Below, in pieces: positions 1,361 to 36,975 of a DNA stretch of 64,000 bases. The stretch's first letter is position 1. Each line of letters begins with the position of its first letter. A program made the translations under genes and the position numbers. The DNA is from a virus, in IMG/VR virus record IMGVR_UViG_3300018065_000011, positions 1 through 64,000 of that record, one strand, 5' to 3'. The notes beneath the pieces were generated by a model. It was not told where the DNA came from. It made no database searches and saw only the letters and a list, made by a program, of their open reading frames with translations.

Positions 1361-1836
1361 GCGATATGATTGTCATTGGGCCGAGAGACCCCAGGGATTT
1401 CGTTCTCTGTCCCGCGTGTGCTTGTTCCTACTCGCAACGCTATGTAGATCGCGTCACGATGGAGTGTCCCATGTATGCCTGCGACTGGGTTTGGGATGCA
1501 GAGGAGCTAGACAGAGCCATCTGGGGTGTTCGGGAAGCCAAGCGTGGTTCTCCTCCGAGCAAGCCGAAAGAGGAATCTACCCACTGGCTTTCGTACACGT
1601 CCCGAGTCCTCACACTCTCCGATGGATCTTGGGTCTCTGTCGAGGACGATCCCGATGGCGGCTTCTTTGCGAAGGTTCACGTCGACACGGGCGGCCACAC
1701 GCTCCTCGATGCAACACGCGGAGAGATCGAGACGTTGGATAAAGCGAAGGAGTGGGCGACGGACACTACGCCCGTCTTCTTGATCTGGAGGACGTATGAT
1801 GGTTGGGATCGCCCACGTTCGCAGCCGTGCGAATGA
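1357..1836 (+). CDS. putative zinc-ribbon protein
   Basis: A 159-residue protein. The N-terminal part has a CPAC...CPMYAC pattern that could hold a zinc ion. The rest looks like a small mixed domain ending in Pro/Arg. It is coupled to the previous gene by ATGA. Its 3' end overlaps the opposite-strand gene ending at 1766 by 71 bases, so the extreme C-terminus of one of the two may be wrong. Confidence 0.55.
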   Translation: MSDMIVIGPRDPRDFVLCPACACSYSQRYVDRVTMECPMYACDWVWDAEELDRAIWGVREAKRGSPPSKPKEESTHWLSYTSRVLTLSDGSWVSVEDDPDGGFFAKVHVDTGGHTLLDATRGEIETLDKAKEWATDTTPVFLIWRTYDGWDRPRSQPCE

Positions 1837-2329
1837 GAGGCAGTAGCGCGTCGCGAACCTTGCCGGGATTCTCATGTGCGATGCGAATCAGTTGCTTGCG
1901 AAGATGTGACGTGGCTACTCTTGCTGGAGCGGGACGGCGTACAGGCGTGGTCGCTCGGGGTCGAGGAGCGCGGACCATGGACTTGGGCGGAGCCGGAGGT
2001 TGCTGTCTCGAAATGAGCGCGATCAGATCGGGCACTTCCCCCTTCATCTGCTCCCGTGCATCCAAACCAACATCGCCTATTCGCATAGCACGTCGGACGA
2101 GACCTTTGAGGTTGCCCAACGCCGACTTCTCGTTCGGACGCAGCGCGGAAACGTCGATGGCTTTCAGAATCCCCTGGATCATCCTCGCGGGCTGCTCCTT
2201 CTGGAGCGCACGTTCGGCGTCTTTGAGATTCGTGAGAGCATCCTGACGAGCCGCCACGATCTCCTCTGGCTCCCTACGGGCTTCTTTGAGGAAGGAAAGA
2301 AGCGCCTCGTGAATGATGTGGTCGATCAT
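1766..2329 (-). CDS. LRKQ-tag protein with the tag at the C-terminus
   Basis: A 187-residue protein. Residues 1-110 are helical and charged, followed by a Pro/Arg linker. At about residues 143-170 comes the peptide shared by eight proteins here (LRKQLIRIAHENPGK, then RDALLPLI). This is the only member with the tag at the C-terminal end, which shows the tag is a mobile module and not simply a signal peptide. Function unknown. Confidence 0.6.
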   Translation of the reverse strand: MIDHIIHEALLSFLKEARREPEEIVAARQDALTNLKDAERALQKEQPARMIQGILKAIDVSALRPNEKSALGNLKGLVRRAMRIGDVGLDAREQMKGEVPDLIALISRQQPPAPPKSMVRAPRPRATTPVRRPAPARVATSHLRKQLIRIAHENPGKVRDALLPLIRTAANVGDPNHHTSSRSRRRA

Positions 2330-2331
2330 GG

Positions 2332-2658
2332 CTAGTAGCTCAACTCTTTGTAGGTTTGCTTGTCCTCGTAGCGAATCCGAGTGGCCCCACCACGTTTCCC
2401 GTCGTACATGGGTCCCAGCAACCCCTGCAACTTCGGGGCTCCCTGCAACTCCTTGCGCGTCCCTGGTCTCGAAAAACGCCCGGTGATTCGGTACTTTCGC
2501 GCGAGCGCTTCCTCAGAGTTGAAGGTCTCCGTCCCGCGAGTGGTCCTGACGACATAGACTTTCTTGTCGTTGGCTTCCTTCAGGAGTGGAAGGATCGCGT
2601 CCCGAACCTCACCAGGATTCTCGTGCGCGAGCCGAATCAGTTGCTTGCGTAGATCCAT
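2332..2658 (-). CDS. LRKQ-tag protein, N-terminal tag
   Basis: A 108-residue protein beginning MDLRKQLIRLAHENPGEV with RDAILPLLKEA directly after, then a basic beta-rich domain (KVYVVRTTRG...). I chose the ATG that puts the tag at the very N-terminus; a GTG 24 bases upstream is also possible. The stop is 2 bases from the next minus-strand start. Confidence 0.65.
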   Translation of the reverse strand: MDLRKQLIRLAHENPGEVRDAILPLLKEANDKKVYVVRTTRGTETFNSEEALARKYRITGRFSRPGTRKELQGAPKLQGLLGPMYDGKRGGATRIRYEDKQTYKELSY

Positions 2659-2896
2659 GTTGGCTCTCTTTCCCAGCGTCACTTCCTCGGCAAAGAAGTT
2701 GGATCTGACTGGATTGATGAGGAGCGGCCGAACCCTCTCGTTGAAACAACCGCGGATTGTGTTTCGCCTGCCGGAACGTCTTGTCCAGAGCTTCCCGAGC
2801 AGAGCTTGCTGGGACCGTGTGGACCAGAAACGTGCGCCCGGCCGCCCGAACCCTCACGTCAAAGTGCTTGCGGGTGCCGGTGTGAAGATCGGACAT
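2609..2896 (-). CDS. hypothetical protein, overlaps following tag gene
   Basis: A 95-residue reading frame. Residues 8-60 look like a real small beta domain (HFDVRVRAAGRTFLVHTV, then SSAREALDKTF). The last 30 residues are low quality because they run antiparallel in register with the start of the next gene, overlapping it by 50 bases. The true end could be earlier if a frameshift is present. Confidence 0.4.
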   Translation of the reverse strand: MSDLHTGTRKHFDVRVRAAGRTFLVHTVPASSAREALDKTFRQAKHNPRLFQREGSAAPHQSSQIQLLCRGSDAGKESQHGSTQATDSARARESW

Positions 2897-3094
2897 CTCA
2901 TCCGAAGCGCTTGTATAGGGAGAATCTCGGCCCCCAAGGCCCCCAGACAGCCCCAGAGCTTTCAGGCTCCCTGACGGCTCCTAGGAGACTTCCCAGAGCA
3001 GAGAGGCTCACAGAGGCTCAGAGGCGCTCAGGCGAGTGCGTGAAGCGCGCCTCCGGCTAGCTTGCCTATCGCGTGACCCGTGTGAGGACCGAGC

Positions 3095-3484
3095 ATGCCT
3101 ACCCTCCGCAAGCAACTGATCAGACTCGCCTACGAGAATCCCCAGATGCAGGAGAAATTGCTTCCGCTGCTCAAAGAGGGAGCGGTTATGAGCGAGCCGC
3201 TCGATCGGGCGCTCAGGGACATCCTCCGCAAAGCCTACATCGCAGGGACGGAAGCTGGTTTCGTTCGTGAGCAAGATGAAGGGGACGAATTCGTGCGCAC
3301 CGCAGGACGGGAAAGCCTCGCCGCGTACAAGGAAGTGAAGCACGCCATCGCCAAGCTGGAGCCGAAGAATTGGGGAAGAGCAGGCACCCTTGGCGGGGTT
3401 CCCATCGGCACGCTCAAGAATCTTTCCGCAGCACTCTGGGAGCTTGCCTATTGGAATGGGGCTTTCCAGGGACCAAGCAAGTAG
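3095..3484 (+). CDS. LRKQ-tag protein, N-terminal tag
   Basis: A 129-residue protein that starts MPTLRKQLIRLAYENP, followed by a QMQEKLLPLLKEG variant of the tag. The remainder (SEPLDRALRDILRKAY...) is a helical domain, different from the other tagged proteins. It is divergent from the minus-strand tag genes, with about 200 bases of GAGGCTC-rich sequence between them. Confidence 0.65.
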   Translation: MPTLRKQLIRLAYENPQMQEKLLPLLKEGAVMSEPLDRALRDILRKAYIAGTEAGFVREQDEGDEFVRTAGRESLAAYKEVKHAIAKLEPKNWGRAGTLGGVPIGTLKNLSAALWELAYWNGAFQGPSK

Positions 3485-3602
3485 GCTGCGATAAACGGTA
3501 AGGGCTCTAAGCGGGTCCGTCCATCCAGCCCGCGGAGATCGCCCTAGCACTCCTCGGTGGCCACGTCGCCGGGGAGTGCGCCTTTGGTATGGTTCTGGGG
3601 AC

Positions 3603-3803
3603 ATGGAAGAATTCACCTTCACTGGCTACCCCATCCCCCTGACTCGTAAAGAACGATGCGCCATGGCTGCGAGGAAGGTGAAGGAAGCCAACGAGATTCT
3701 CGCCTACGAAGCCGAGAATCTCCCCGAGCCCCAAAGGACAGAGAACGCGGCAGTACGAGGATCGTTGATGCATCTGTCCGACAGACTGGAAAAGCTCCGC
3801 TAG
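3603..3803 (+). CDS. hypothetical protein
   Basis: A 66-residue mostly helical protein (TRKERCAMAARKVKEANEI). The start is the ATG at 3603. The ribosome site is weak. No family recognised. Confidence 0.45.
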   Translation: MEEFTFTGYPIPLTRKERCAMAARKVKEANEILAYEAENLPEPQRTENAAVRGSLMHLSDRLEKLR

Positions 3804-3827
3804 GGATGGCGTAGAGACCCACTGACC

Positions 3828-3980
3828 ATGCTAGACGTGCGCACGATAGACGACAATCGAGAGTTGTACGAAGGACGCTGGATTCCCTCGCGCCCATTGC
3901 CAGGGCCGTTCCTCAGACGACTGTTGGACGCCTGGGCTGTTTTACGGGGCCGTGCAGAGGCAGTCCACTGGCCGCGATGA
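3828..3980 (+). CDS. hypothetical small protein
   Basis: A 50-residue protein rich in Arg, Pro and Leu (ELYEGRWIPSRPLPGPFLRR). Codon use fits its neighbours and it fills the gap between two genes. No known function. Confidence 0.4.
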   Translation: MLDVRTIDDNRELYEGRWIPSRPLPGPFLRRLLDAWAVLRGRAEAVHWPR

Positions 3981-3996
3981 CGGTATCGTGGGTTGC

Positions 3997-4470
3997 ATGG
4001 ACCAGGAAAGTCTCCGTGACATCCAGAGCCGGCTGAAGCACGTTGGGGACTTGCTCGAATCAGCAAGTCAAGCCCCTGACTCCCGCTACTTTGCACGAGA
4101 AGCGAAGAGAGTACTTCGCAATGTGACCGACACGATCGAGATCAAGACGGAGCGGTGCTTTACGTCTATCGAAGCATTCGTGCAAGCCTGTGAGGATCTC
4201 CAAACCGAAGATCCTGAGGAGCTTCCTTCTGACATCCGGCCACGCCGAGGAGACATGTTACGTCCCTGGTTTCAGCCATTCGAGGACGCACGGCGGAGAG
4301 TGCTTGGTGTTCAAGAGATTCTATCAGGCGACCGCCTGACGATGCCGCTCACGGCGTTGAAAGAAGCACCGCCGGAATGGAAAGCTCTCGTGAGCAAATT
4401 CGTGAAGCCAGAAGGCCGAAAACTCCTGGCTGACGCCCTCACGAGGGGAGAGTACCCCGGCGTGTTGTAA
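3997..4470 (+). CDS. hypothetical helical protein
   Basis: A 157-residue all-helical protein (SLRDIQSRLKHVGDLLESAS). The start at 3997 follows the small gene ending at 3980. A longer frame from 3952 would overlap that gene. No family recognised. Confidence 0.55.
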   Translation: MDQESLRDIQSRLKHVGDLLESASQAPDSRYFAREAKRVLRNVTDTIEIKTERCFTSIEAFVQACEDLQTEDPEELPSDIRPRRGDMLRPWFQPFEDARRRVLGVQEILSGDRLTMPLTALKEAPPEWKALVSKFVKPEGRKLLADALTRGEYPGVL

Positions 4471-4626
4471 TCGCAACCGCCCCGTAGCAGAGCGGAAACC
4501 CTCGCGCCCTCAGAAGCACCCGCTCACTGATTCGAGCGGCAAGCTGACGCGCACCCTAGTGAACCTCGAAAACGGAGGGATGTCAAGTGGGCACCCGTTG
4601 TGAAGGAAATGGGGTAAAAGATCAAG
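4471..4626 (+). other. short intergenic region
   Basis: 156 bases without a gene. It ends in AATGGGGTAAAA shortly before the next start; the same words precede the tag gene region near 14530, so they may be part of a promoter. No hairpin of note was seen. Confidence 0.3.
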
Positions 4627-4837
4627 ATGCCAGACGACCCCAAGTACTTCTGCGCCGACTGCCTGCGCTACCAGCCCTCGATGAAACGACCCTGCCCCGA
4701 CTGCGGATCAATCCGCGTGACCCTGCCCCGACTGCGGATCAATCCGCGTGATCCTGCTGTCGATCGTGGACCAGATCGCAGACCCGGCAGACAAAGAGAG
4801 GACTCTCGCTGACATCCGAAAGGCAAACGAGGTCTAG
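4627..4837 (+). pseudogene. zinc-ribbon gene frameshifted by a 31-bp tandem duplication
   Basis: The gene starts MPDDPKYFCADCLRYQPS and has two Cys pairs (CADC, CPDC) typical of a small zinc ribbon. A perfect 31-bp tandem duplication (4689-4719 and 4720-4750) shifts the frame. As sequenced, the product goes out of frame and stops at 4812. Removing one copy restores a clean frame (...SIRVILLSIVDQIADPADK...) whose stop at 4837 lies one base before the next start. The allele is therefore recently disrupted or carries an assembly error. Confidence 0.7.
4689..4750 (+). repeat. 31-bp perfect tandem duplication
   Basis: Two adjacent identical 31-bp units beginning ACCCTGCCCCGACTGC. The unit length is not a multiple of three and knocks the enclosing gene out of frame. 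Confidence 0.95.
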
Positions 4838-4838
4838 T

Positions 4839-5162
4839 ATGGGAAGCGGTCTCAGACACGTCATGGAAGTGCCCCAGGATCACGGCCCAAACTGGCTGTG
4901 CGATGTGCGAACAGACGGTGCCTACGCCGGCACGCGCATCGCCACCAAGCTCAAGCCGAACAACGAGATCCTGACCCAGCTTGAATGGGCCGATCGCGAA
5001 GGCGATGACATGTATGAGGAGCACAATCAAGGGCTCCTCATCGTGCTCAACGGGCCAGGTACAGAGTCGGTCCCCCGGAAGGTGCTCGAATGGCTCATGA
5101 ACGGCCAACCGAGCGAAGAGAAGGACGAGATGGATGTGCTTCTGGATCAGATGGGCTACTGA
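4839..5162 (+). CDS. hypothetical protein
   Basis: A 107-residue acidic protein (WLCDVRTDGAYAGTRIATKL). It starts one base after the restored stop of the upstream gene, which supports the two being an operon. Function unknown. Confidence 0.6.
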   Translation: MGSGLRHVMEVPQDHGPNWLCDVRTDGAYAGTRIATKLKPNNEILTQLEWADREGDDMYEEHNQGLLIVLNGPGTESVPRKVLEWLMNGQPSEEKDEMDVLLDQMGY

Positions 5163-5177
5163 GGAAAGGAAAAAACG

Positions 5178-5654
5178 ATGCCACTGTTCAAACTAGATGG
5201 CGAGTACGCCATGCCCGAGATAGAATTCACCGTCTTTGTCGAGGCCAAGGATCAAGCCGAAGCAGACAAACTGCTCAAAGAGCTACGTGACTGGGATAGC
5301 AGGATAGACGGTGCGATAGAAGATGAGATCCATGAAGCCCTGATAGAACGCAGGGGCGGTCACCAAGGCACCCAATGGAATTTCGCCAACCCTGTGGAGA
5401 AGGTTCCTGAGGGCGCCACGGTGGTGAAGCTCCCAGACGGCTGGGATTGGCATGGGGTGAGTATGACCAGCGTGCGCCAAATCCGTTGTCCCAACTGCGA
5501 TTCTCTCTCGTTCACGACAGAGCGACTGGAGAAGAACAACCATTCCTTGAACGTGAGAGCAAAGCTCACCTGCAAAAAGTGTGGGCACGTCTGGGAATGC
5601 AACGTGTCAAATCCTGATCACCGAGTGAGTCGGGGGCGCCTCGGGTTGCCGTAA
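5178..5654 (+). CDS. putative zinc-ribbon protein
   Basis: A 158-residue protein. The N-terminal half is an acidic alpha/beta domain (EIEFTVFVEAKDQAEADKLL). The C-terminal half has a zinc ribbon with CPNC about 30 residues before CKKCGHVW. A GAGGAAAGG site precedes the ATG. Possibly nucleic-acid binding; no family named. Confidence 0.6.
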   Translation: MPLFKLDGEYAMPEIEFTVFVEAKDQAEADKLLKELRDWDSRIDGAIEDEIHEALIERRGGHQGTQWNFANPVEKVPEGATVVKLPDGWDWHGVSMTSVRQIRCPNCDSLSFTTERLEKNNHSLNVRAKLTCKKCGHVWECNVSNPDHRVSRGRLGLP

Positions 5655-5665
5655 AGGGCTGATAC

Positions 5666-6172
5666 ATGCGAGTGTCTTTTCAAGTAGCTGTCAACCTCAA
5701 GGGAAAGCCTGCTCCGAAAGCCGTCATGATGGCGCGGCTAGAAGAGTGGGAGGGCCCGCTTCCAAGAGCAGGCGAATTGGTGCGTATAGGAGAGCTTACG
5801 CGGTCCGTCAGGAACGTCATCCATGCGCTCGATACGACTGCTCCCCTCGAAATCTGTCTGGTCTCTCTAGACACCTGCCGGGCTCAAGACTTTGAAGAGA
5901 CCGTCGCCTACCTGACGAGCATGGGATTCGAGATCGTTGTCTCTGCCCACGACGTTTTTGACGAGGCGAAAGAAGCTGTCATGGGGGAGAACGTTCAAAA
6001 GAGCGGCACCTATGGCGACTGGCATCCAGACGGGCGCATCGACGTGAGCACCGACGACCGGCCAATCTGGGTCCGCGCTCGTGTGGAAACGGGGGCGAAA
6101 GTACCAGGCCAAGGAACCTTGATGCGCGTGCTTCGTATCGAGGACGGATACGCAGTCGTGGAGGTAGCATGA
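5666..6172 (+). CDS. hypothetical protein
   Basis: A 168-residue protein with beta-rich ends and a central helix (FDEAKEAVMGENVQKSG). It follows the zinc-ribbon gene by 11 bases and is coupled to the next gene by ATGA. No family recognised. Confidence 0.6.
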   Translation: MRVSFQVAVNLKGKPAPKAVMMARLEEWEGPLPRAGELVRIGELTRSVRNVIHALDTTAPLEICLVSLDTCRAQDFEETVAYLTSMGFEIVVSAHDVFDEAKEAVMGENVQKSGTYGDWHPDGRIDVSTDDRPIWVRARVETGAKVPGQGTLMRVLRIEDGYAVVEVA

Positions 6173-6381
6173 GCCGCGTGTACCTAGTGATCAACATCAT
6201 GCAGAGCGAGACCGGCTACGCGGTCATGGTCAACTCGTCGCGAGACTACAGGGGTGTAGATCCCGAGACCAAGGGAATTGCTCGCGGCGAGAATCTCGAT
6301 GCCGATGCTGCGGCGGCGACCGTTGCTGCTGCGTTGGAGCAGTGGACGGAACACGAGGAAAAGCAAGGGTGGGTCGAGTAG
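6169..6381 (+). CDS. hypothetical protein
   Basis: A 70-residue protein (VYLVINIMQSETGYAVMVNS) with an Ala-rich helix at the end. Coupled by ATGA. Function unknown. Confidence 0.55.
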   Translation: MSRVYLVINIMQSETGYAVMVNSSRDYRGVDPETKGIARGENLDADAAAATVAAALEQWTEHEEKQGWVE

Positions 6382-6382
6382 G

Positions 6383-6613
6383 ATGATGGAAGGCAACGGC
6401 GAATCACCGCAGGGCACCACCTGGACGGAATGGGGGAAAGCTCTGAAAGCCAAGTTCGAGACGATCTGTGACGAATGGACGGAGAGTCTCAAAGCGCTTT
6501 GCCGGATGGAACGGGCTCCCCAGCGGAAACGCAGGAAACGTGTCGCTAAGAAGATCGCGGCACGCAACGGATATCTCCACCACAACTGCTTCGGCTACTA
6601 CGACTGGAAATGA
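6383..6613 (+). CDS. hypothetical basic protein
   Basis: A 76-residue protein with a Lys/Arg cluster (RAPQRKRRKRVAKKIAARNG) that may bind nucleic acid. It starts one base after the previous stop and ends in ATGA overlap with the next gene. Confidence 0.55.
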   Translation: MMEGNGESPQGTTWTEWGKALKAKFETICDEWTESLKALCRMERAPQRKRRKRVAKKIAARNGYLHHNCFGYYDWK

Positions 6614-6822
6614 AACTCTATAGCATGATCCAACTCATGGAGATCGCCCACATCTTCCGGCGGCAGTTTGGCGAACAGATCATGCGAGAAGCCATCGAGA
6701 AGCTGACGGACCGTGAGTTTGTCGAGTTTCAAATGCGATTCCATGCGATGCTTCGCCTGCTAGAGCAGATGCAGCACGATTTCGAGATTTCGCTCAAGCA
6801 CGTGGAAGGAGGCAAGGCATGA
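6610..6822 (+). CDS. hypothetical helical protein
   Basis: A 70-residue fully helical protein (MEIAHIFRRQFGEQIMREAI) with ATGA overlaps on both sides. No family recognised. Confidence 0.55.
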   Translation: MKLYSMIQLMEIAHIFRRQFGEQIMREAIEKLTDREFVEFQMRFHAMLRLLEQMQHDFEISLKHVEGGKA

Positions 6823-7178
6823 GCAAGAGTGACTTCTTGGTGAAGGGGACGGACGCCATCAAGCATAAGCCTTGTGAGCCGTGCAACGGGACAGGACATG
6901 ACCCGCGATCGGAAGACATCCAGTTTCCCTGCAAAGACTGCATGGCGTCTGGGGTGGACTGCTCAGACTGGACGCGGGAAGAGTTGGACCGAAACATGCT
7001 GGCCTACATCGTCTACCATTGGGCGCCAAGTAAGGTGGTTCTGTCAGGCATCTGGATGCACGACCTAGAGAAATGGGTGCGTGCGGTAGAAGAGAAGTTT
7101 CCGGCAGACTTTCTGCGCCGCTTCGCGCAAGACCCGATCGCGGATGAAGATGCGGAGGAGCCAGATGGACCTGCATGA
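6819..7178 (+). CDS. putative zinc-binding protein with DnaJ-like Cys repeats
   Basis: A 119-residue protein. CEPCNGTGHD and CKDCMASG near the N-terminus resemble the CxxCxGxG repeats of DnaJ zinc fingers, but only two are present. The rest is helical with a Trp-rich stretch. The chaperone link is a pattern match only. Confidence 0.5.
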   Translation: MSKSDFLVKGTDAIKHKPCEPCNGTGHDPRSEDIQFPCKDCMASGVDCSDWTREELDRNMLAYIVYHWAPSKVVLSGIWMHDLEKWVRAVEEKFPADFLRRFAQDPIADEDAEEPDGPA

Positions 7179-7425
7179 CGCAATCGAAAGAGCCCAGCTT
7201 CGCGCTGACAGCAAGTATCTTCGCCAACGGTGGGAGTGTCCAGAAATCCTGTGGAACCTTCTGCACAATCTCGGTGAGGGCAGCCCGGACATGGGGCTTG
7301 ATCGGCTACTTGAGTTAGTGGCCGCGACGCATCGGCCAAAGGAATATAGCTACTTGACACGACCCACTGGAGTGGCGACGAGACTGATAGATCTAGAGCA
7401 GTGGTGCCCGAAGGAGGAGCCATGA
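7165..7425 (+). CDS. hypothetical protein
   Basis: An 86-residue helical protein starting at ATG 7165 within the previous gene, preceded by GGAGGAG. Unknown function. Confidence 0.5.
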   Translation: MDLHDAIERAQLRADSKYLRQRWECPEILWNLLHNLGEGSPDMGLDRLLELVAATHRPKEYSYLTRPTGVATRLIDLEQWCPKEEP

Positions 7426-7658
7426 CCCATTGGGGGCAAACGTGCGAGCATCGTTTCGAGTATCGTGGTGTGGTGTACCGTGTCGGTCACCAGTTGGCAG
7501 GCAGCGGCGCCAGGCACGTTTCGTACTACGACTGCTATTTCTGCTCGCGTTGCTTGGAGACTCGCATCGACAAATTGGACTGCGAGTCTGATACTTACAC
7601 CGATCTCAAATTCGGAGCGACGCCCGCTCCGAAGAAAGCGATGCCGCTTTCACCATGA
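7422..7658 (+). CDS. hypothetical Cys-rich protein
   Basis: A 78-residue protein with CEHRFEYRGVVYRVGHQ and later DCYFCSRC. The Cys/His spacing suggests a zinc site. ATGA-coupled to the previous gene, with GGAGGAG before the start. Confidence 0.5.
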   Translation: MTHWGQTCEHRFEYRGVVYRVGHQLAGSGARHVSYYDCYFCSRCLETRIDKLDCESDTYTDLKFGATPAPKKAMPLSP

Positions 7659-7721
7659 GCACCCCCAACGAACAATGCATCTGTCGCTACAGCAATTATT
7701 GAAAGAGAGACGAGACACCCC

Positions 7722-14196: not shown

Positions 14197-14490
14197 CTAC
14201 CGCCGGTAGTGCTCGCGAATCCCCGTTCGGATGGCCTTCTTCGTGGCCGCGTTCCACCTGTAAGAACGTGCATCCGCGTCGAGATTCATCAACGCATCAC
14301 GCTCGCGCACCCCCTCCAACGTGCCCAGGAAATTCTCCACCGCAACAGCCTTGACCCCAGGCTGACGTGCAAGAGCCTGGATACGAGCGTCCGATAGACC
14401 CGCCTGACGGAGCAACGGAAGAACAGCATCCCGAATCTTGCCAGGGTTGGCATGAGCGAGACGGATGAGACGTTTGCGAAGGTCAGACAT
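14197..14490 (-). CDS. LRKQ-tag protein, N-terminal tag
   Basis: A 97-residue protein starting MSDLRKRLIRLAHANPGKI with RDAVLPLLRQA next. The rest is a short helical domain (DARIQALARQPGVKAVAVEN). Upstream, ACGCTATAGGG may be a -10 region. It lies alone on the minus strand between plus-strand operons. Confidence 0.65.
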   Translation of the reverse strand: MSDLRKRLIRLAHANPGKIRDAVLPLLRQAGLSDARIQALARQPGVKAVAVENFLGTLEGVRERDALMNLDADARSYRWNAATKKAIRTGIREHYRR

Positions 14491-23506: not shown

Positions 23507-24148
23507 ATGGTCGACCCACGACAAGTCGAGGAGTGGAACAAGACGCTCGACAAGCGGATGGCCGACGCGAAGAGGATGTATGCGCATCTGCTGGAGCGGG
23601 GTGAGATTCCGGTTCAAGTGCGCAAGGGCGCGCCCGGTGGCAAGCCGGGCAAGAAGTTTACGATCAAGATGCGGACGGGGATGGGGGCCAAGGGGTTCGG
23701 GGTGATCGAGCCGGGGAGGAAGAGGCCGGTGGAGGGGTACAAGATGCTGGGCAGGGACCGGATGCTCGATTGGCTGTCTGGTCTGGAGCCGCAGCGAGGA
23801 ACGAGAGTTGGAGCCATGGACGAGCTACGCAAGCAGGTCTTCAAGGTAGCGTATGAGAATCCTGGCGAAGTGAGGGAGGCCCTCTTGCCGCTGCTGAGGG
23901 AGGAAGGCGAGCCGATGGCGAAGCCGGGCACAGATTCCAAAAAAGCCGCTCAAGCATCTCACAAGGCGCTCATGGCGGCTTACGACTTGCTCACTGACGT
24001 GAAGGCGGAGATTCAAGTACTGCTCAATCCCCACGCGGGTGTAGATGACAAGACGAAGCAGCAGGCCAAGAAGGTGTTTGATTCAGTCAAGAAGATCGAA
24101 TTGGCGATGAACACCACCCACACCCATCTAGGCAAGATGATTCGGTAG
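23507..24148 (+). CDS. LRKQ-tag protein with internal tag
   Basis: A 213-residue protein. Residues 1-100 are basic (KGAPGGKPGKKFTIKMRTGM). At residue 104 an internal Met starts MDELRKQVFKVAYENPGEV, REALLPLLREE, the shared tag. Residues 135-213 are helical. Two products are possible: the full-length protein, or a tagged protein from ATG 23816 (weak GGAG site). Confidence 0.6.
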   Translation: MVDPRQVEEWNKTLDKRMADAKRMYAHLLERGEIPVQVRKGAPGGKPGKKFTIKMRTGMGAKGFGVIEPGRKRPVEGYKMLGRDRMLDWLSGLEPQRGTRVGAMDELRKQVFKVAYENPGEVREALLPLLREEGEPMAKPGTDSKKAAQASHKALMAAYDLLTDVKAEIQVLLNPHAGVDDKTKQQAKKVFDSVKKIELAMNTTHTHLGKMIR

Positions 24149-24177: not shown

Positions 24178-24342
24178 ATGAACAGAGACCTGACAGGATT
24201 TTTGAACGGGCCGCCAAGCCAGGTGCTCTGCGGCATCTGGCTTTCCGCCTTGACCAGACCGGAAGTCCAGGCTTGGACAGGCCGATCGAAAGATGGGGCC
24301 GCCGCGGTGCGGGTAATGCCGAAAGGCCGGAGTGAGAGATGA
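24178..24342 (+). CDS. hypothetical small protein
   Basis: A 54-residue protein (NGPPSQVLCGIWLSALTRPE). Its TGA overlaps the ATG of the next tag gene, which supports its being translated. Confidence 0.45.
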   Translation: MNRDLTGFLNGPPSQVLCGIWLSALTRPEVQAWTGRSKDGAAAVRVMPKGRSER

Positions 24343-24836
24343 ACGATCTACGCAAGCAAGTCATCAAGGTCGCGTACGATAATCCTGGAGAGGTACGGGA
24401 CGCATTGCTGCCGTTGTTGTTGAAGATTCGAGTTACGCCCGACAGCACTCTGGTGCGGAAGGCAGTCGGAGACCCGACTTCATCACGAACCTCGCCTGGA
24501 CCGTGGCCGGAGTTGACGAATGACGACAGGAAGGTGCTCGGGGAAATTGCGTGGAAGTACAACAAGATCCTTGAGAGGCTCTCGGGTCAACTGTATGGCG
24601 AGTTACGGAAGCTGGCGGGTCAAGCAGAGAGACATCGGCGGGCGGTCTTGCAGCAGGCCAGACAATCAGAGGACCCGGTCACACAGCGGAAGATGAAGAG
24701 CTTGGCTGATGTGCTCAGGGACGTGGTCAAGCAGGCTACGGCTTTTGCACACAAGGATACGCTATGGAGGGATTTGAGCCAGGTAGGTCAAGCGGATTAC
24801 GAAGCCAGGTGGATGCTCGATCCGTTCCACACGTGA
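24339..24836 (+). CDS. LRKQ-tag protein, N-terminal tag
   Basis: A 165-residue protein starting MNDLRKQVIKVAYDNPGEV, RDALLPLLLK. A Pro/Ser linker follows, then a helical domain (GEIAWKYNKILERLSGQLYG). Second of three consecutive tag genes. Confidence 0.65.
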   Translation: MNDLRKQVIKVAYDNPGEVRDALLPLLLKIRVTPDSTLVRKAVGDPTSSRTSPGPWPELTNDDRKVLGEIAWKYNKILERLSGQLYGELRKLAGQAERHRRAVLQQARQSEDPVTQRKMKSLADVLRDVVKQATAFAHKDTLWRDLSQVGQADYEARWMLDPFHT

Positions 24837-24843: not shown

Positions 24844-25185
24844 ATGTCCAATCTACGCAAGGAAGTCATCAAGCTGGCTCACGAAGCCGGGCCGGGAGAG
24901 CTACGGGACAAGCTGATGCCTCTCATCAAGGAGGGCATCTCGGATGAGGAGGCCCAGTCGGGCGCGATTCAGAAGCGCATGGCAACGGCTCACGCGATGT
25001 GTTGGGTGCTCCACAGCGTCCTTCAGGACATGCTGCCGCTCGGGGAGCACATTCCGAGGCAGTCAACACTCAAGCTCCAGAACGATGCTGTCAGGATGGG
25101 GAAGGTGTTGTGGGAGAAGATGGACTCGCAGGGGCGGAGTTGGGCCAAGCGCTATCGGGGCAAGATCGAGTCGGCGTTGCGGTAG
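24844..25185 (+). CDS. LRKQ-tag protein, N-terminal tag
   Basis: A 113-residue protein starting MSNLRKEVIKLAHEAGPGEL with RDKLMPLIKEG, the most diverged tag. The rest is helical (MATAHAMCWVLHSVLQDML). Last of the three-gene tag cluster. Confidence 0.6.
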   Translation: MSNLRKEVIKLAHEAGPGELRDKLMPLIKEGISDEEAQSGAIQKRMATAHAMCWVLHSVLQDMLPLGEHIPRQSTLKLQNDAVRMGKVLWEKMDSQGRSWAKRYRGKIESALR

Positions 25186-29772: not shown

Positions 29773-29782
29773 GGAGGGGATG

Positions 29783-30670: not shown

Positions 30671-30984
30671 TTGCTGGTTGCTTTCTCGGCCACCGTCTCG
30701 ACGGCTGCTTCGGAGATAGGAAACTCACCCTGCATCTGCCCACAGTCGAGGCAGTATTCGAAGTCCACGTAGTCTCCGCCGCCGATGCCAACGTTCTCGG
30801 GAGCGTAGTCGTTGAGGCAAATACCTGACCGATCCTGCGCATAGCCCGTCGAGTTTAGCGAACCGCCGGCAGATCGCCAAAAGACGCTCAGCCCCGTAGG
30901 ACATGTTGTTTGCCATGTGCAGCGGTCGCTTGTCTTGGCGCCGACTGACGCGATGCGGTTACTGTTACATCGTTGACAACTCAT
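30667..30984 (-). CDS. zinc-binding phage protein
   Basis: A 105-residue protein: MSCQRCNSNRIASVGAK at the start, then VGIGGGDYVDFEYCLDCGQM. These blocks match a known small phage protein family. A ~36-residue stretch between them looks foreign, so an insertion or partial replacement is likely. ATGA-coupled to the next gene. Confidence 0.55.
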   Translation of the reverse strand: MSCQRCNSNRIASVGAKTSDRCTWQTTCPTGLSVFWRSAGGSLNSTGYAQDRSGICLNDYAPENVGIGGGDYVDFEYCLDCGQMQGEFPISEAAVETVAEKATSK

Positions 30985-31022
30985 TCTCTAGTCTCCGTTT
31001 CAGTGCTTCCATGCAGCCATAC

Positions 31023-31382
31023 TCAGTTGACGATGGTTGGGTCTTCGCCTGTGACTCTCCAGTTGTTGGTGATCCACACGACGCCAATCTCGCCGTCCCA
31101 TGGTCTCACGTCACGCCAGACGTTTTCGGGCGGCACTTCAATCTTGGAGGCCAGATCATCGAGATGCTCCATTGCCTCTTTTAGGGTGGGTGATCCCGTC
31201 GTGTGGTGTAGTCTCGACTTGAGCCGTACGGCTGTCACTTCTTTCCAATCGGGAACGGGGCCGGGCATCGGCTTTTCTTCGAAGAAAGCTACGTGGTAGG
31301 TGTTGGCTTTGACGTTGTGGAGGACACAAAGGACATCTAGGGGGCCGCCAATGAATGTTCCGTTGCCGTTGTCGATCAGCAT
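31023..31382 (-). CDS. hypothetical protein
   Basis: A 119-residue protein (VKANTYHVAFFEEKPMPGPV). The promoter motif on this strand ends 19 bases upstream of the ATG, with GAGGAG between. Unknown function. Confidence 0.6.
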   Translation of the reverse strand: MLIDNGNGTFIGGPLDVLCVLHNVKANTYHVAFFEEKPMPGPVPDWKEVTAVRLKSRLHHTTGSPTLKEAMEHLDDLASKIEVPPENVWRDVRPWDGEIGVVWITNNWRVTGEDPTIVN

Positions 31383-31400
31383 AAAATGCTCCTCTTGCTC

Positions 31401-31430
31401 CTACTACGCGAGATTCGGTCCAGAGTTTAC
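31401..31430 (-). promoter_or_regulatory. 30-bp promoter motif, minus strand
   Basis: On the minus strand: GTAAACTCTG, 10 bases, CGCGTAGTAG. Correctly oriented toward the gene at 31382, which supports a promoter role rather than a chance repeat. Confidence 0.75.
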
Positions 31431-31718
31431 ACACCTGTCGAATTAGGCCGCAAGAAGCCCCGTGGTGGCCTTTTTGAACCAGGAAACTCCCCTTTGCCAA
31501 TTTCTCAATTCCCTGCTCCAGCGGGGCAAGATAAGCATTGGATCGGGTCAGATACTATCTTTCCTGCGGTGTGCTGCAAAGTGGGGGTTTCTCGCTCGCG
31601 GCGAGATCGGTGAAAAACCCTTTGTTGGGATATGAAACCCTGGCCGTGTCCGAATTCGGGAAGTTATCGCCCTGAGCGTTGCGGTTTCCAACCCCGATTG
31701 GTCGCTTTCGTGTAGCAT
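31431..31718. other. non-coding region between divergent genes
   Basis: Nothing gene-like. One stem AGGCC...GGCCT followed by TTTTT (about 31446-31480) could terminate plus-strand transcription. TTGGGATATG near 31625 could serve as part of a promoter for the plus genes. Confidence 0.3.
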
Positions 31719-31967
31719 GTGGGTGTGGATCATTCGGAGGCCCACATTCGGCTCAATCGGTTGCTCGACGGCACCTTCTGTGGAGCGACTACAGAGGAGC
31801 GGCGACTGGAGGGCGTTCTCTTGTGTGCAGTGTCGGTCACACGGTGGCCGAAGCTTACGCAGATCTTGAAGTCACCCAAGGTCGTGTACAAGGCGAGCCA
31901 TTCGACGTGGGAGGATGCCTACGAAGCGTTCGCGGCGTGGGTCGAGGCTGAGTTGCCTGGGGTATAG
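31719..31967 (+). CDS. hypothetical protein
   Basis: An 82-residue protein (LEGVLLCAVSVTRWPKLTQI) starting at GTG. Unknown family. Confidence 0.45.
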   Translation: MGVDHSEAHIRLNRLLDGTFCGATTEERRLEGVLLCAVSVTRWPKLTQILKSPKVVYKASHSTWEDAYEAFAAWVEAELPGV

Positions 31968-31973
31968 TGAAGC

Positions 31974-32471
31974 ATGGCCGAGAACGAGAAGGCTGGCGGG
32001 GACTACACTCCCCAGACACCAGAGGAGCGGAGACGCACCACGGTGGACATCGTGAGGCGCGGCCTGGAGGAGTGCGGCAATCTCAAGTGGTCACACTACG
32101 CGGACTTGATGATCCGGCGGGATGGCAAAGACATCCATGTAGAGGCTGACTGGCTCAAGTACGTCGAGGACGTGTGTCCCGAAGTCAAGCCGGGTGAGCG
32201 GGAGCGTTGTGTGATTTCGGATCTTCCGCCGGGCACGCTGTTTCTCGATAAGGGGGAGCGCCACGTGCTGATCGACAACTCCTCTTACGCGATTCATCGT
32301 TTGACTGAGGCGATGTATTGGCCGACTGTGCGGTTGCGGGATGGAGAGGTAGTCCTCTTTCTTTATCCCGACACGGAAGTCGAGATCCTAGAGAAGCCCG
32401 TGGAGCCCAAGGCGGTCGTCGCAGAAGAAGAAACAACCGTCATGGCAGCACCCCATGACGGAACGGACTGA
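31974..32471 (+). CDS. hypothetical protein
   Basis: A 165-residue acidic protein (LEECGNLKWSHYADLMIRRD) with a beta-rich C-terminal half. Six bases after the previous stop; overlaps the next gene by 17. Confidence 0.55.
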   Translation: MAENEKAGGDYTPQTPEERRRTTVDIVRRGLEECGNLKWSHYADLMIRRDGKDIHVEADWLKYVEDVCPEVKPGERERCVISDLPPGTLFLDKGERHVLIDNSSYAIHRLTEAMYWPTVRLRDGEVVLFLYPDTEVEILEKPVEPKAVVAEEETTVMAAPHDGTD

Positions 32472-32928
32472 GACAGAGGCTCTCTGGGAGCAGCTACGCC
32501 AAGCGTGGGGAGACATCCGATCGCTTGAGGAACGGCTCCTCATAGCCGAAGCCCAGAAGTCTGATGAGGAAAGTCGTGTAGAGATCTCGCGCGCAGAGGA
32601 GACGCTGCGGATGCCGATGGGGAAGGTGCGGGGTTGTATGGTCCAGTGCTTTGAGCAGATCACCCGATACCGCACGCATGATGTTCGGCAGTGCTTCGTT
32701 GTCGCGATTCCTGGCCGTACTTCCGAGCAGCCTCCCAAGGCGATCCAGGTCACCAAGGAGGATACCTGGGAGAAGGCTGTTGCGGCGGCGGAGAAGTGGC
32801 TAGCTGAGACGGAGCCCGTGAAGCGAGAGCTTTCGGAAGAGGTCGCCGCGGTGGAGAAGCGGCAAGGCGAGAAACGAGAGCTTTCGGAAGAGGAGCTAGC
32901 TCCTCTGGCTTGGCACGTCCAGCGCTAG
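32455..32928 (+). CDS. hypothetical coiled-coil protein
   Basis: A 157-residue protein: helical start, a middle domain (QCFVVAIPGRTSEQPPKAIQ), and a C-terminus with KRELSEEVAAVEK and KRELSEEELAP, a small internal repeat (CGAGAGCTTTCGGAAGAG twice). Confidence 0.55.
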   Translation: MTERTETEALWEQLRQAWGDIRSLEERLLIAEAQKSDEESRVEISRAEETLRMPMGKVRGCMVQCFEQITRYRTHDVRQCFVVAIPGRTSEQPPKAIQVTKEDTWEKAVAAAEKWLAETEPVKRELSEEVAAVEKRQGEKRELSEEELAPLAWHVQR

Positions 32929-33605
32929 TCCCAATCTAGGCGAACGGGATCGCCTGGCTTCCAGGTCGCCTGGTACGCTTTGAGAGCGGCGGGCCGTGGG
33001 TCTTTGGGGAAGTCGGGTTGATGTTCCGACTTCGCGAACAGATCTTTCCAAGAGATGCGGCCGAGGAGAGGCAGAGTTTCTGTCTTCGTAAGCGCAAAGG
33101 CTGGGTAGTGCCTTGTCTGTCGCACATCGTACCAGTGGGCTTTGAGATACTCCTGGCTGTTGTGCCAATAGATTTCGTCTTGATACCGAGGAGCGGGGGA
33201 CATGGGTTTGCCATCTTTGTAGAGAAAGTCGGAGTGCAGCCCTGCGTGAAGTTGCCATTGACGATGACGTTGTTTGGCGAAAAGATCAGGCGTCAGTTGT
33301 CGAATGTCGAAAATTCGTGGCTGGTTTTCGTTCATCTTCTCATCGTACTTGCGTTCGATGCGGTCCCAGATGTTCTCCGCGTCCTCCTCATCGAGCAGGT
33401 CATCGATCAAGGTTTCTAGCTCTCGCCAACGAGGCTTGAGATTCCAGCTTCCCATCTGCTCGGAGGCATCGAGGTAGACAGGCTGCCCGTCGAGAAGGCC
33501 GATTCCTGTGACCATCCCGTCGTAGCTTCCCTCGCGCCAGAGAAGGAGAATACGGCCGGGCTCGATGTCTGATCGGTCGAATGTCTCCTTTACGCTAGTC
33601 ATCAT
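32925..33605 (-). CDS. hypothetical protein
   Basis: A 226-residue protein rich in Trp, Tyr and Arg (GRILLLWREGSYDGMVTGIG). Overlaps the upstream minus-strand gene by 11 bases. Unknown function. Confidence 0.6.
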   Translation of the reverse strand: MMTSVKETFDRSDIEPGRILLLWREGSYDGMVTGIGLLDGQPVYLDASEQMGSWNLKPRWRELETLIDDLLDEEDAENIWDRIERKYDEKMNENQPRIFDIRQLTPDLFAKQRHRQWQLHAGLHSDFLYKDGKPMSPAPRYQDEIYWHNSQEYLKAHWYDVRQTRHYPAFALTKTETLPLLGRISWKDLFAKSEHQPDFPKDPRPAALKAYQATWKPGDPVRLDWD

Positions 33606-34029
33606 TCTCCCTTGACTCAGCGATTTCGCTGTCGAGCAGGCTTTTGATCTGTTGAATGAGATCCTCGGGGATGTCTATCTTTCGATACCTGTCTTGCCAG
33701 CCGTGAAATTCATGCATGTAGCTGTACGTGCGGCCTTCGCCGACTTCCATGTAGAAAGGATCTGAGTAGATCCTTCCTAGAGTAGTCTCGACGTAGGGCA
33801 TGGCGAGAATGCCGGCGTCGGAACAACAGCCGCATGTGCGTCTCCACTCAAACTTGTTGCACTGGCTGTTAACCGTTGCGCTCTTGTACCGGATCGTGCC
33901 CCACCGATCTCGCTGAAAAGTGAGATCTGGAAACTCTTGTCTGAGCCGGTGAAGGCGCTCGTGCTCGGTCAGTCTTTTGGTTGCCTCTGCCTTGAGAGAC
34001 GCGAGGTGTTCTTCCATTGAGTCAGGCAC
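33595..34029 (-). CDS. hypothetical protein
   Basis: A 144-residue protein: charged helix then a Cys/Tyr-rich domain (CNKFEWRRTCGCCSDAGI). Possible metal site; unknown role. Confidence 0.55.
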   Translation of the reverse strand: MPDSMEEHLASLKAEATKRLTEHERLHRLRQEFPDLTFQRDRWGTIRYKSATVNSQCNKFEWRRTCGCCSDAGILAMPYVETTLGRIYSDPFYMEVGEGRTYSYMHEFHGWQDRYRKIDIPEDLIQQIKSLLDSEIAESRENDD

Positions 34030-34363
34030 AGGCGGACTCCTCTTCTTCGCGGAGATACTGTTGTCCCACGCACTCGGCGAGTTTGCGGTTGTGCTCCTCG
34101 GCGTCCCACTCGGTACACAATTTCTCGCGGCCTGTTTCTCTCATCGATCTGTTGTAGTCGCGGACGTGAGCGGGAGGATTCTTGCGGTGCAATCGTCCTC
34201 TGCCCCAAGCCCGAAGTGTGTAGAGACCCGTCACCACGTCGGCGTAGCGCCAGGGTGAGTAGTTACGGGCCTTGCAGAATTTCGTCCACTCGTCCCAAGA
34301 GGTACGGTGGAGTTTCTCGGCTGCGTGTATGTCGTCTACGAGTTTCTTGATGTCGATTTGCAT
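34022..34363 (-). CDS. hypothetical protein
   Basis: A 113-residue helical Arg-rich protein (KKLVDDIHAAEKLHRTSWDE). Overlaps the following gene by 8 bases. Confidence 0.55.
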   Translation of the reverse strand: MQIDIKKLVDDIHAAEKLHRTSWDEWTKFCKARNYSPWRYADVVTGLYTLRAWGRGRLHRKNPPAHVRDYNRSMRETGREKLCTEWDAEEHNRKLAECVGQQYLREEEESACA

Positions 34364-34369
34364 GTTTCC

Positions 34370-34666
34370 TCAGCGCAGCAACGGCAAGCCGCCGACTGCC
34401 TTTTTGATGGGTTGACGGTCGGCTACCGGCGGAATGCCGATTGCCATGATCTCTCCGCACCACGGCTCATCGGGTTCCCGAATTGCGTGGTGTGGAATGT
34501 TGAAAAGCCGCAGCTTGTCCTCGATGAAGGACAAGTGCGGCTCGTCTCTCGCAGCTAGCGCTACGGCATGTGTCCCCGGAGGCAGTTGCCCCGGCGACGA
34601 TTCTCCGGCAGCGTGGATGACCATCGCTGCCAGGACGCCCAACGGAAGGTCGCGGCGGACGATCAC
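34370..34666 (-). CDS. peptidyl-tRNA hydrolase Pth2-like protein
   Basis: A 98-residue protein: VIVRRDLPLGVLAAMVIHAA (Pth2 start with the DL.xG...A...HAA pattern), IREPDEPWCGEIMAIGIPPV (the late AIG motif) and GGLPLL. The Pth2 fold releases tRNA from stalled peptidyl-tRNA; shortened phage relatives exist, and enzymatic activity is inferred only. The usual Met start codon position reads ACG; GTG 34666 is used instead. Sits directly downstream of a tRNA gene. Confidence 0.6.
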   Translation of the reverse strand: MIVRRDLPLGVLAAMVIHAAGESSPGQLPPGTHAVALAARDEPHLSFIEDKLRLFNIPHHAIREPDEPWCGEIMAIGIPPVADRQPIKKAVGGLPLLR

Positions 34667-34683
34667 GTAGTGCGTCCAGAACG

Positions 34684-34757
34684 CGCGCTGAGAGGGGGTC
34701 GAACCCTCGACCTTCCGGGCGAATACCCCGGCTGCTCGGCCTACTGAGCTTCCAGCG
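34684..34757 (-). tRNA. tRNA with ATT anticodon (Asn-like) or pseudo-tRNA
   Basis: Acceptor GCGCTGG/TCAGCGC, D stem GCTC/GAGC, T arm GAGGGTTCGACCCCCTC all form. The anticodon stem CCGGG/CCCGG closes the loop GTATTCG, giving ATT at 34-36. Bacteria normally use GTT for Asn, and C37 is odd, so it may not decode normally. Confidence 0.55.
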
Positions 34758-34895
34758 CTGGCGTCTGCGGAGTCGCCTGGGGCGCTTCCGCGTGAATTCC
34801 GAGGTCCCTCAAGGGGCTGACTGTCATTCGGACTTCATCTGGGTCTCGACTCTAAGACCGGCCCCCGGTGGTGTCAAGGCCGCGCGAGTCGCGCT

Positions 34896-34951
34896 GTAAA
34901 CTTCTTACCCACGGCTACCAAGGGATCCCGTCCGCGATTCCCGCGTAGAGG
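34896..34951 (+). promoter_or_regulatory. variant promoter motif with a wider gap
   Basis: GTAAACTTCT and CGCGTAGAGG are both present but 36 bases apart instead of 10, as if 26 bases were inserted. The small gene at 34968 follows. Confidence 0.4.
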
Positions 34952-34967
34952 TGAGCCGTCTCAGGGC

Positions 34968-35096
34968 GTGGGCCGTAAAGGGTGCCGCTACTTTGAAGGA
35001 GGCAACACGGACGCCGGTACGCTGCGCAGGCTTGATTTGGTGCTCGGGGTTCTCAAGTATGCTGTCGACCACGGTCAACGAGTGGTCTGGAATTAG
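34968..35096 (+). CDS. hypothetical small protein
   Basis: A 42-residue protein (LRRLDLVLGVLKYAVDHGQR) starting at GTG 34968, 17 bases after the CGCGTAGAGG box. Tail overlap of 4 bases with the minus-strand gene. Confidence 0.45.
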   Translation: MGRKGCRYFEGGNTDAGTLRRLDLVLGVLKYAVDHGQRVVWN

Positions 35097-35293
35097 CGCC
35101 GCTTTGGCACCTTGTTGATCAGCCACAGGGCCATGCGCTCCAGAAGTCCCAGCGGTCGTACTCTCAATTGTGTTGTGGAGCGGGCAAGGATTTTGACGTA
35201 ATCCCCGTTCGTCAATTGAATGATATTTCCACGTCGGTAGTCGTGGCCGTCAGGATGTGGAATCCAAGGCATCTTGTACTTGGGGAGTTGCAT
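35093..35293 (-). CDS. hypothetical small protein
   Basis: A 66-residue basic protein (RGNIIQLTNGDYVKILARST). I chose ATG 35293. A strong hairpin lies just upstream. Confidence 0.5.
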   Translation of the reverse strand: MQLPKYKMPWIPHPDGHDYRRGNIIQLTNGDYVKILARSTTQLRVRPLGLLERMALWLINKVPKRR

Positions 35294-35307
35294 AGACCAA
35301 ATAGAAA

Positions 35308-35330
35308 GGGCTTCCCCGTGAGGAAGCCCC
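35308..35330 (-). terminator. hairpin GGGCTTCC/GGAAGCCC
   Basis: An 8-bp perfect stem with a 6-base loop, followed on the minus strand by CTTTCTATTT. Terminator or attenuator before the gene at 35293. Confidence 0.5.
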
Positions 35331-35536
35331 GTGCTCGATGACGCGGCCAAAAAGTGACCGGCCTCGGTGCGGATACCTGGCCCGTATCCGACACTTCGCG
35401 CCCCGCTGCTTTTGGATCTACGATCCGGCCTTACAGCGATTGGGAGGAGTATAGATGGCCTGGGGGGCGCCCGTCAACGCGCCTGGCGCGCGAAGGTTGG
35501 TCTATTTTGTGCCGATTCGGCGTATTCTGTAGGTGG

Positions 35537-35923
35537 ATGATGGTCGAATTGGAACATCCTCTGGAGTCGATCGCGGCTGTGATGGCGTTCTCCACTCTAG
35601 ACATGAAGCGGAAGTCCCAAGCAGCTTGGGAGGGGGATCGTGTGTGGAACAGCATTGCAGTTTCGCCGGACAGGCCCCCGATTGATTGGTTGTCCGATCC
35701 AAGACTCGCGTGGGTTTGGGGTGTCGTCCACGGCTGGGGTCCAGAAGACGAGGACTGGCATAGAGCGGCCAACGTAATCGGTTGGGATGATAGCACTCTC
35801 GATCGTTTGCGACGACTTCATCGCAAGTACCGGAATCTTCGTGCTAGTCAGATTGTACGTTCCTACATGAAGATGATCGGCATTGCAGAGGAGACTGCTC
35901 GTGATCTGGGAGATCTTCCATGA
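35537..35923 (+). CDS. hypothetical protein
   Basis: A 128-residue Trp-rich protein (AWVWGVVHGWGPEDEDWHRA). ATGATG start; either Met may be used. ATGA-coupled to the next gene. Confidence 0.55.
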   Translation: MMVELEHPLESIAAVMAFSTLDMKRKSQAAWEGDRVWNSIAVSPDRPPIDWLSDPRLAWVWGVVHGWGPEDEDWHRAANVIGWDDSTLDRLRRLHRKYRNLRASQIVRSYMKMIGIAEETARDLGDLP

Positions 35924-36120
35924 ATGAACAGAAGCAAACGTGGTTTCCTCTCGACGCCAGCACGACGGAACAGCATCGTGCTTGGGGGCTTTTGGTGTAC
36001 CGCAATGACGGACAGACACGAGGGCACGTAGCGGGCACCATTGTGATGGCTCGCATGGGTGAGGCCAGTGGGGTGGTGTTTGTGCCGCATGAGCTAATGC
36101 CCGCGCCTCGAAAGGGATGA
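35920..36120 (+). CDS. hypothetical small protein
   Basis: A 66-residue protein (VAGTIVMARMGEASGVVFVP), coupled by ATGA on both sides. Confidence 0.5.
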   Translation: MNEQKQTWFPLDASTTEQHRAWGLLVYRNDGQTRGHVAGTIVMARMGEASGVVFVPHELMPAPRKG

Positions 36121-36296
36121 CAGTCGAGCACATCCAGAGCGCCGTGGTTCACTCCTGGCGCTGCACGGTCTGCAAGTACGAGTGGGATGTCTACGGAGGA
36201 GACCCCTACGACTACGACCCGGATGAGGAGCCGGTAGGTCCGGTGCCGGACAGTTGTCCTCGTTGCGGGCCTTGGCAGCCTACCGTCACTCGATAG
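36117..36296 (+). CDS. zinc-ribbon protein
   Basis: A 59-residue protein with WRCTVCKYEW and SCPRCGPW (four Cys) around an acidic Tyr/Asp loop. ATGA-coupled; tail overlap of 11 bases with the minus-strand tag gene. Confidence 0.55.
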   Translation: MTVEHIQSAVVHSWRCTVCKYEWDVYGGDPYDYDPDEEPVGPVPDSCPRCGPWQPTVTR

Positions 36297-36975
36297 GAGC
36301 CCAGGCCCACTCTGCGGTAGCCGTGAATTTCGCCCGGAAGGGGAACGTGATCTGTCGCGTGTCTGCCCTGATTCGTCTGGGAGGAACGGCGAGGTTGTCC
36401 CAATCGGGGAACAGGATGTCCCAAGCCCCTACGTTGCTCTCTTGAGCCATCCAGTCTTCCCAAGTCTCCTCATCATCGATCACGCGCCCTACTCTCGGCC
36501 ACTCGGCGTGCTCGATGATCACCCAGGACCAGACCTTGGGGAAGTGCCGGTTGAGCACCATGGTCTCTAGCTTGCTCTCGATGATGAGAAAGTCACGTCC
36601 GCTTACCCGCGTCCGCATGGCTCGCCGCATGCTTTTCAGGGGGTAGCGGATCACTCCAGTCGTGTAGGCTGCGACGGTGCCCTTCACATCGCGTCGTTCG
36701 TGCTGAGCTTTTTCTGCGTCATCGGCAAGATTCTGAAAAGTGCTCTTGTCGGCTTGCGTCACTTGCCGAACAATGTAGTTGTCTGCGTCGTTCGCCGCAG
36801 CGATCAGAGCCTTGACCAGCTTGGGAAGGATGGTTCGCGCCTGATCTTCGAATACTTCTTTCGCGAGCGACTGGAGCGCCGAAGGAGGGGCTGCCTTCTT
36901 GAGCAAAGGAAGCAAGCCTTCCCGAAGTTGCGGTTGTTGCTGGGCGAGCCGGAGAATGCTGCGTCGTAGGCTCAT
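36286..36975 (-). CDS. LRKQ-tag-like protein, N-terminal tag
   Basis: A 229-residue protein starting MSLRRSILRLAQQQPQL, REGLLPLLKKA, a diverged form of the shared tag. The body has a helical part (VKALIAAANDADNYIVRQVT) then a Trp/Arg-rich alpha/beta domain. GGTAGGCTATGG upstream may be a -10 region, similar to that before the gene at 45716. Confidence 0.6.
   Translation of the reverse strand: MSLRRSILRLAQQQPQLREGLLPLLKKAAPPSALQSLAKEVFEDQARTILPKLVKALIAAANDADNYIVRQVTQADKSTFQNLADDAEKAQHERRDVKGTVAAYTTGVIRYPLKSMRRAMRTRVSGRDFLIIESKLETMVLNRHFPKVWSWVIIEHAEWPRVGRVIDDEETWEDWMAQESNVGAWDILFPDWDNLAVPPRRIRADTRQITFPFRAKFTATAEWAWAPIE

Follow-up and report, generated by a model that had tools for sequence, protein, structure and literature searches.

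A recurrent two-helix peptide on unrelated proteins of huge phages with phage-G-type capsids is a candidate head-packaging tag

We analysed a 64,000-nucleotide stretch of viral DNA (the window), which is the first 64 kb of the 372,162-base virus record IMGVR_UViG_3300018065_000011, here called G000. Eight genes of the window encode a common peptide tag with the short-form consensus LRxKLIRLAHxNPELRPHLLPLLK, and the existence of this common tag is certain. By computation, the tag is modular, conserved at the protein level and tied to a lineage of phages with the phage-G-type capsid. Its recognisable cargo is often of effector type, and a motif beside the tag switches sides together with it.

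Most window copies stand at the N-termini of their proteins (the E-values given here are from a profile search of G000). On the minus strand, the tag at 2569-2655 (E 1.7e-19) begins gene 2332-2682, whose likely start is the ATG at 2658, the tag at 14398-14484 (E 6.2e-17) begins gene 14197-14490, and a diverged tag at 36889-36972 (E 5.3e-13) begins gene 36286-36975. On the plus strand, N-terminal tags occupy 3101-3184 (E 2.3e-16) in gene 3095-3484, 24345-24428 (E 7.6e-18) in gene 24339-24836 and 24850-24936 (E 2.2e-16) in gene 24844-25185.

Two copies are placed differently. The tag at 1820-1906 on the minus strand (E 7.0e-19) lies about 21 residues before the C-terminus of gene 1766-2329, also on the minus strand, and RVATSH directly precedes it. 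The tag at 23822-23908 on the plus strand (E 2.7e-18) is in the middle of the protein of gene 23507-24148 on the same strand, with an in-frame ATG just before it and coding signal on both sides of it in one frame. The preliminary description had named the same eight proteins and these two unusual placements, and all of them are found here as claimed.

An independent profile, built of 159 tags that all come from other phages, recovers exactly the eight window copies with E 6.4e-14 to 2.6e-8, and the next match is at E 0.29. With the same profile, the best match in the reversed frames is at E 0.029 and no match below 0.01 arises in five shuffles, so a chance origin of the tag is rejected. Eight copies turn out to be an understatement for the phage, since profile search counts 17-18 copies over the 372 kb of G000 and 24 in its near-copy G002 (497 kb). 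Three tags are in the single gene G000:114810-115793, and several proteins have two or three copies, for example L089:8170-11898. Four of the G000 copies are at 158-167 kb and adjoin the terminase gene.

Over 114 gap-free copies the consensus is LR[SK][KR][LV]IRLAHx[NK]PELRPHLLPLLK[ET]AA, and the conservation stops at about residue 27. The C-terminal copies end at LLPLLK or just beyond, which puts the length of the minimal tag at about 24-25 residues. AlphaFold on the tag alignment gives helices at residues 3-13 and 17-30 with a pLDDT of 92, and the tag is predicted to be a helical hairpin. In a whole-protein model, a linker of low confidence leads from the hairpin to an alpha/beta body. Of the two amphipathic helices first proposed, the two helices stand in the model and the amphipathic character is weak, their helical moments being not above those of shuffled peptides.

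Several tags are immediately followed by a second peptide, EFPTEEARKKYLxEHPxADPxxHTV. The untagged protein of L020:14956-16584 (G000:164955-166583), which has a Dps-like domain, starts with this second peptide (EFSPEEWETYKKDHPGAKRERHTI), and its relatives in G003 and G029 bear the tag instead. An extra motif, GWTxxSxxKFWxSLTGDxKHKVTxCxKxM...DDxGAFCASLADxVxGxxWR, is common to the tagged proteins L019:9810-10790 and L089:7595-8272 and occurs also in a Haloarcula tailed virus 3 protein annotated as portal (E 5e-4).

In Pfam, PHROG and NCBIfam each model matches at most a few tagged proteins and hence none covers the tag, and in these collections it is not seen as part of a known folded domain. 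The PDB sequence search with the tag gave nothing convincing, its best match being a weak stretch of DDIT4 (E 0.005). Likewise, the fold search with one tagged protein, using a model of moderate quality, gave nothing convincing, and the literature searches for the consensus strings gave no match.

The bodies behind the tag had been described as sharing nothing visible, which agrees with our clustering. With the tag masked, 172 tagged frames fall into 112 body clusters, mostly singletons, and show no overall homology, so whole-protein homology is rejected as the source of the shared peptide. The bodies of the eight window proteins match no Pfam family above the cut-off, and none of them is in the same body-homology cluster as another tagged protein.

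The tag is usually N-terminal and can also be C-terminal or stand between domains, with 17 copies within 15 residues of the frame's C-terminus and others internal. In one set of homologous bodies, the tag of L153 is N-terminal and those of L175 and L185 are C-terminal. A related stretch comes before or after the tag in L170 and L159, and the tag of L114 links two bodies that are found separately elsewhere. A sigma-factor-like look of L095, L182 and L114 was considered and is not supported.

Among the copies within G000, 41% of the codons at identical residues match, where codon usage would give 35%. Selection therefore acts on the protein, and it is the amino acid sequence of the tag that is conserved and not its DNA. 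A mobile coding DNA element residing in many genes, like the Rickettsia palindromic elements, would also put the same peptide into unrelated genes at varied positions, but from copy to copy the choice among synonymous codons is close to random, and the tags keep the reading frame and lie mostly at termini. By the codon test, in which silent sites are not conserved, we reject such a mobile repeat and hold it to be scarcely credible.

Besides G000 and G002, about 45 further contigs of huge phages bear the tag. A degenerate DNA pattern for LIRLAHxxPxLRxxLLP detects 89 stretches on about 42 IMG/VR contigs, a narrower DNA pattern detects 17 stretches, and by profile search many copies are confirmed in each record. 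The same degenerate pattern, searched in 84,980 bacterial and archaeal species, detects only five contigs, in three metagenome-assembled genomes, and these are plausibly phage contigs binned with those genomes. In the phage collection only LR745208.1 has convincing matches, and a variant query against plasmids found no match. A diverged variant, LxxQLIRLGxxNPELRPHIRPVL, is present in further contigs and beside the head genes in G027, and a DNA pattern for the LxxLIRLG variant detects 14 stretches.

The tagged phages have one capsid lineage in common. The phage-G-type major head protein family is matched in 22 of the 31 tagged records tested, 21 of them strongly (E <1e-47). Every tested tagged record above 110 kb has the phage-G-type capsid protein, and those with a weak match or none are all fragments below 106 kb. 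The capsid protein of G000 is 90% identical to that of LR745208.1, an uncultured huge phage of 485 kb, and its identities to the isolates are 48% for Tunturiibacter phage Tunturi_5, 38% for Bacillus phage G and 29% for Mycobacterium phage Myrna.

The head genes of G000 lie beyond the window, with the terminase at 169 kb, the portal gene with an intein-like insertion at 172-175 kb, a protease-containing gene at 188-192 kb, an acidic scaffold-like gene at 192-193 kb and the capsid gene at 194.0-194.9 kb. Tagged genes can be their close neighbours elsewhere. In W01 a tagged gene sits between the scaffold-like and capsid genes, and in G027 the protease and capsid genes are flanked by tagged genes.

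Two frames apart from the capsid gene have stretches that copy or resemble parts of the capsid protein. The window has at 37875-38147 on the plus strand a 90-residue open reading frame in which a twin-arginine-like leader (MKRRTFIGSLFAALGAICFP) and a stand-alone capsid N-terminal arm are followed by a stop, and G002 has it too. The 375-residue frame L269 (G000:217260-218387) joins an unrelated N-terminal part to a stretch resembling the C-terminal half of the capsid protein. The capsid frames of G030, G033 and G019 contain an in-frame TAG in two and TGA in the third, possibly through recoding or an upstream artefact.

As to other contents, the window has 13 tRNA genes and encodes elongation factor Tu (EF-Tu, 58700-59875) and a TnpB/Cas12f-like protein (54159-55586). 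Intein or homing-endonuclease insertions are seen in the genes of ribonucleotide reductase (RNR), the RecD2 helicase and the portal (G000:131462-134437, 135262-138906 and 171977-174919, respectively).

The recognisable cargo is often of effector type. Domain scans of 84 and 81 tagged proteins, with some matches below the curated cut-off, found ART-PolyVal, LPD1, RelA/SpoT, ParB-like, DUF5710, DUF2958, DnaJ and pentapeptide repeats on the tagged bodies, and further YunG, the Dps-like DUF5856, WGR, RNA ligase and a few others. The majority of the tagged proteins are small, with a single recognisable domain or none. Several of these domains belong to the polyvalent proteins that have been proposed to be co-injected with the DNA (PMC5512222).

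By comparison, 84 random untagged genes from the same loci match 63 families, and the 25 of these that are listed are mainly DNA polymerase III subunits, AAA, NUDIX, chaperonin, thymidylate synthase, NAD synthase, methylases and RNR; the contrast covers these 25, and effector families are possible in the remainder. The replication and recombination genes examined in G000, namely those for a DNA polymerase III subunit, RNR, RecD2 and an SMC/RecF-like ATPase, are without the tag, and so are the neighbours encoding EF-Tu, Cpn60, Thy1 and NAD synthase.

These untagged enzymes bear on the idea of sorting within the cell, in which the tag would direct its proteins to a phage compartment, be it a phage nucleus or another replication body. 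The phages are huge indeed, and short sorting signals on unrelated proteins would look alike. Yet the replication and recombination proteins lack the tag, and the capsid protein belongs to the phage G type, which to our knowledge is not of the nucleus-forming family, no chimallin search having been made. We therefore regard such sorting as distinctly unlikely.

A short motif, [KR]xA[ASGT], marks the junctions between tag and body. For 63 of 122 N-terminal tags it is present in the nine residues that follow the tag (3.4 expected), and for 9 of 23 C-terminal or internal tags in the nine residues that precede it (0.7 expected), so the motif stays on the body side whichever end bears the tag. The expectations were obtained at randomly chosen positions of these proteins, and none of 1,000 random draws reached either count, although the motif was picked after the junctions were viewed and some proteins are related, so that the counts are not fully independent. 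The linker pairs GS/SG and GG are not enriched at the tag junctions.

Similar motifs are found in the head proteins themselves, at the N-terminus of the head protease (RTAS, RVAS, RIAS, RVAA), at that of the scaffold-like protein (RTAS, KKAS, RKAS) and in the capsid arm (KTAAG, KTASG). The junction motif thus fits a putative head-protease site, as judged from the sequences.

Alternatively, the tag may be a small folded interaction domain, through which effectors would associate with one another, or with a shared partner from host or phage, in the infected cell, and no packaging would be involved. A helical hairpin predicted at pLDDT 92, its presence in two or three copies in several proteins and its C-terminal and internal positions would all suit such a domain. 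However, it leaves unexplained both the body-side motif that flips with the tag and the tie to a single capsid lineage, and we consider it unlikely.

The reading that we prefer is that the tag is a portable head-packaging signal for effector-type proteins that are later ejected with the DNA, and we hold this to be somewhat probable. We favour it because the bodies are unrelated, the position is free, the capsid lineage is one, the cargo is of effector type, the intracellular enzymes are untagged and the body-side motif flips. A sorting or packaging tag had been suggested from the window alone; this is now the best supported reading and is partly supported overall, docking, packaging, cleavage and ejection being what we infer.

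In the proposed course of events, the tag hairpin would dock on a component of the assembling head, which may be the scaffold, the protease or an inner shell. Many unrelated effector-type proteins would thereby be enclosed in the head. The head maturation protease would then probably cut a site of the [KR]xA[AS] type between tag and body, and the enclosed proteins would be ejected with the DNA into the next host. More broadly and only tentatively, the huge phages with phage-G-type capsids might use one universal, position-independent tag with a body-side protease site, so that nearly any gene product, on gaining the 25-residue hairpin, could be plugged into the set of virion-delivered effectors.

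Several observations weigh against the packaging signal. The nearest isolates, Tunturi_5 and phage G, are without the tag, and so is Myrna. An unbiased leader search, which recovers the tag in G000, found no comparable shared leader in Tunturi_5, a soil-bacterium phage that served as control, or in the sampled part of phage G. The tagged genes are scattered through the genome and, by rigid circular shifts, are not enriched within 10-25 kb of the capsid or terminase genes (p 0.27 to 0.53), so we do not count placement as general evidence for packaging. Around half of the tags are without [KR]xA[ASGT], the capsid-arm motif varies and is KTPQG in some, and the motif could be a recurrent short linker instead of a cut site. 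Moreover, the tagged phages are known from metagenomic sequence alone and no virion proteome was found for them.

If the tag does load heads, the proteins that a huge phage injects when infection begins can be read from the sequence alone. More than 100 families of bodies, almost all with no known function, would then be candidates for early effectors or counter-defence proteins. The tag would also serve as a general label with which phage heads deliver proteins, and the choice of internal proteins by huge phages would become testable by one fusion experiment.

Among the known systems, the capsid-targeting sequence (CTS) of T4 is similarly a short sequence common to several unrelated proteins of one phage, the internal proteins and Alt. 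It directs them to the core of the prohead, and gp21 then cleaves it off (PMC5694885). The T4 CTS is 10-20 residues long, N-terminal and removed, whereas the present tag is a predicted hairpin of about 25 residues in 17-24 copies per phage. That the T4 signals are N-terminal only and this tag is also C-terminal or internal speaks against a packaging signal of the same kind; a strictly N-terminal position was tested and does not hold, so the tag is not classed as a T4-type CTS, and packaging and cleavage are what we infer for it.

In phage P1, residues 1-30 of DarB suffice for packaging a reporter (PMC9024508). DarB is alike in having an N-terminal signal and effector-like cargo, but the Dar proteins have no common consensus (PMC9024508), while one consensus runs across all tagged proteins here. 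The ejection-protein propeptides of the phiKZ-like SPN3US are likewise leader sequences that the head protease removes from internal head proteins (PMC5694885). They are mostly over 100 residues long with AXE/SXE cut motifs, whereas this tag is short and uniform with the junction [KR]xA[ASGT], and the phiKZ-like giant phages have a capsid lineage other than that of the tagged phages.

The polyvalent proteins of phages and conjugative elements share ART-PolyVal, LPD1, RelA/SpoT or ParB-like domains with several tagged bodies (PMC5512222). As a class they are characterised by several disparate effector domains in one protein. Effector domains do occur on tagged bodies, but most tagged proteins show one recognisable domain or none, and no common packaging tag is found in the description of the polyvalent proteins (PMC5512222).

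The cargo peptides of microcompartments and encapsulins are also portable, short helical tags at either terminus (PMC11157265), and one conceivable reading is that the tag loads cargo into such a non-capsid protein shell. The microcompartment peptides are linker-joined helices of 15-20 residues with a similar positional freedom (PMC11157265), and the Dps-like cargo recalls that of encapsulins. However, the tag is a predicted two-helix hairpin, no such shell was found in an incomplete search, and the sole strong HK97-type capsid-family match in the genome is the major capsid protein, microcompartment shell families not having been searched; this makes a non-capsid shell very improbable. The tag may best be called a cargo-loading peptide that would work like a capsid-targeting sequence.

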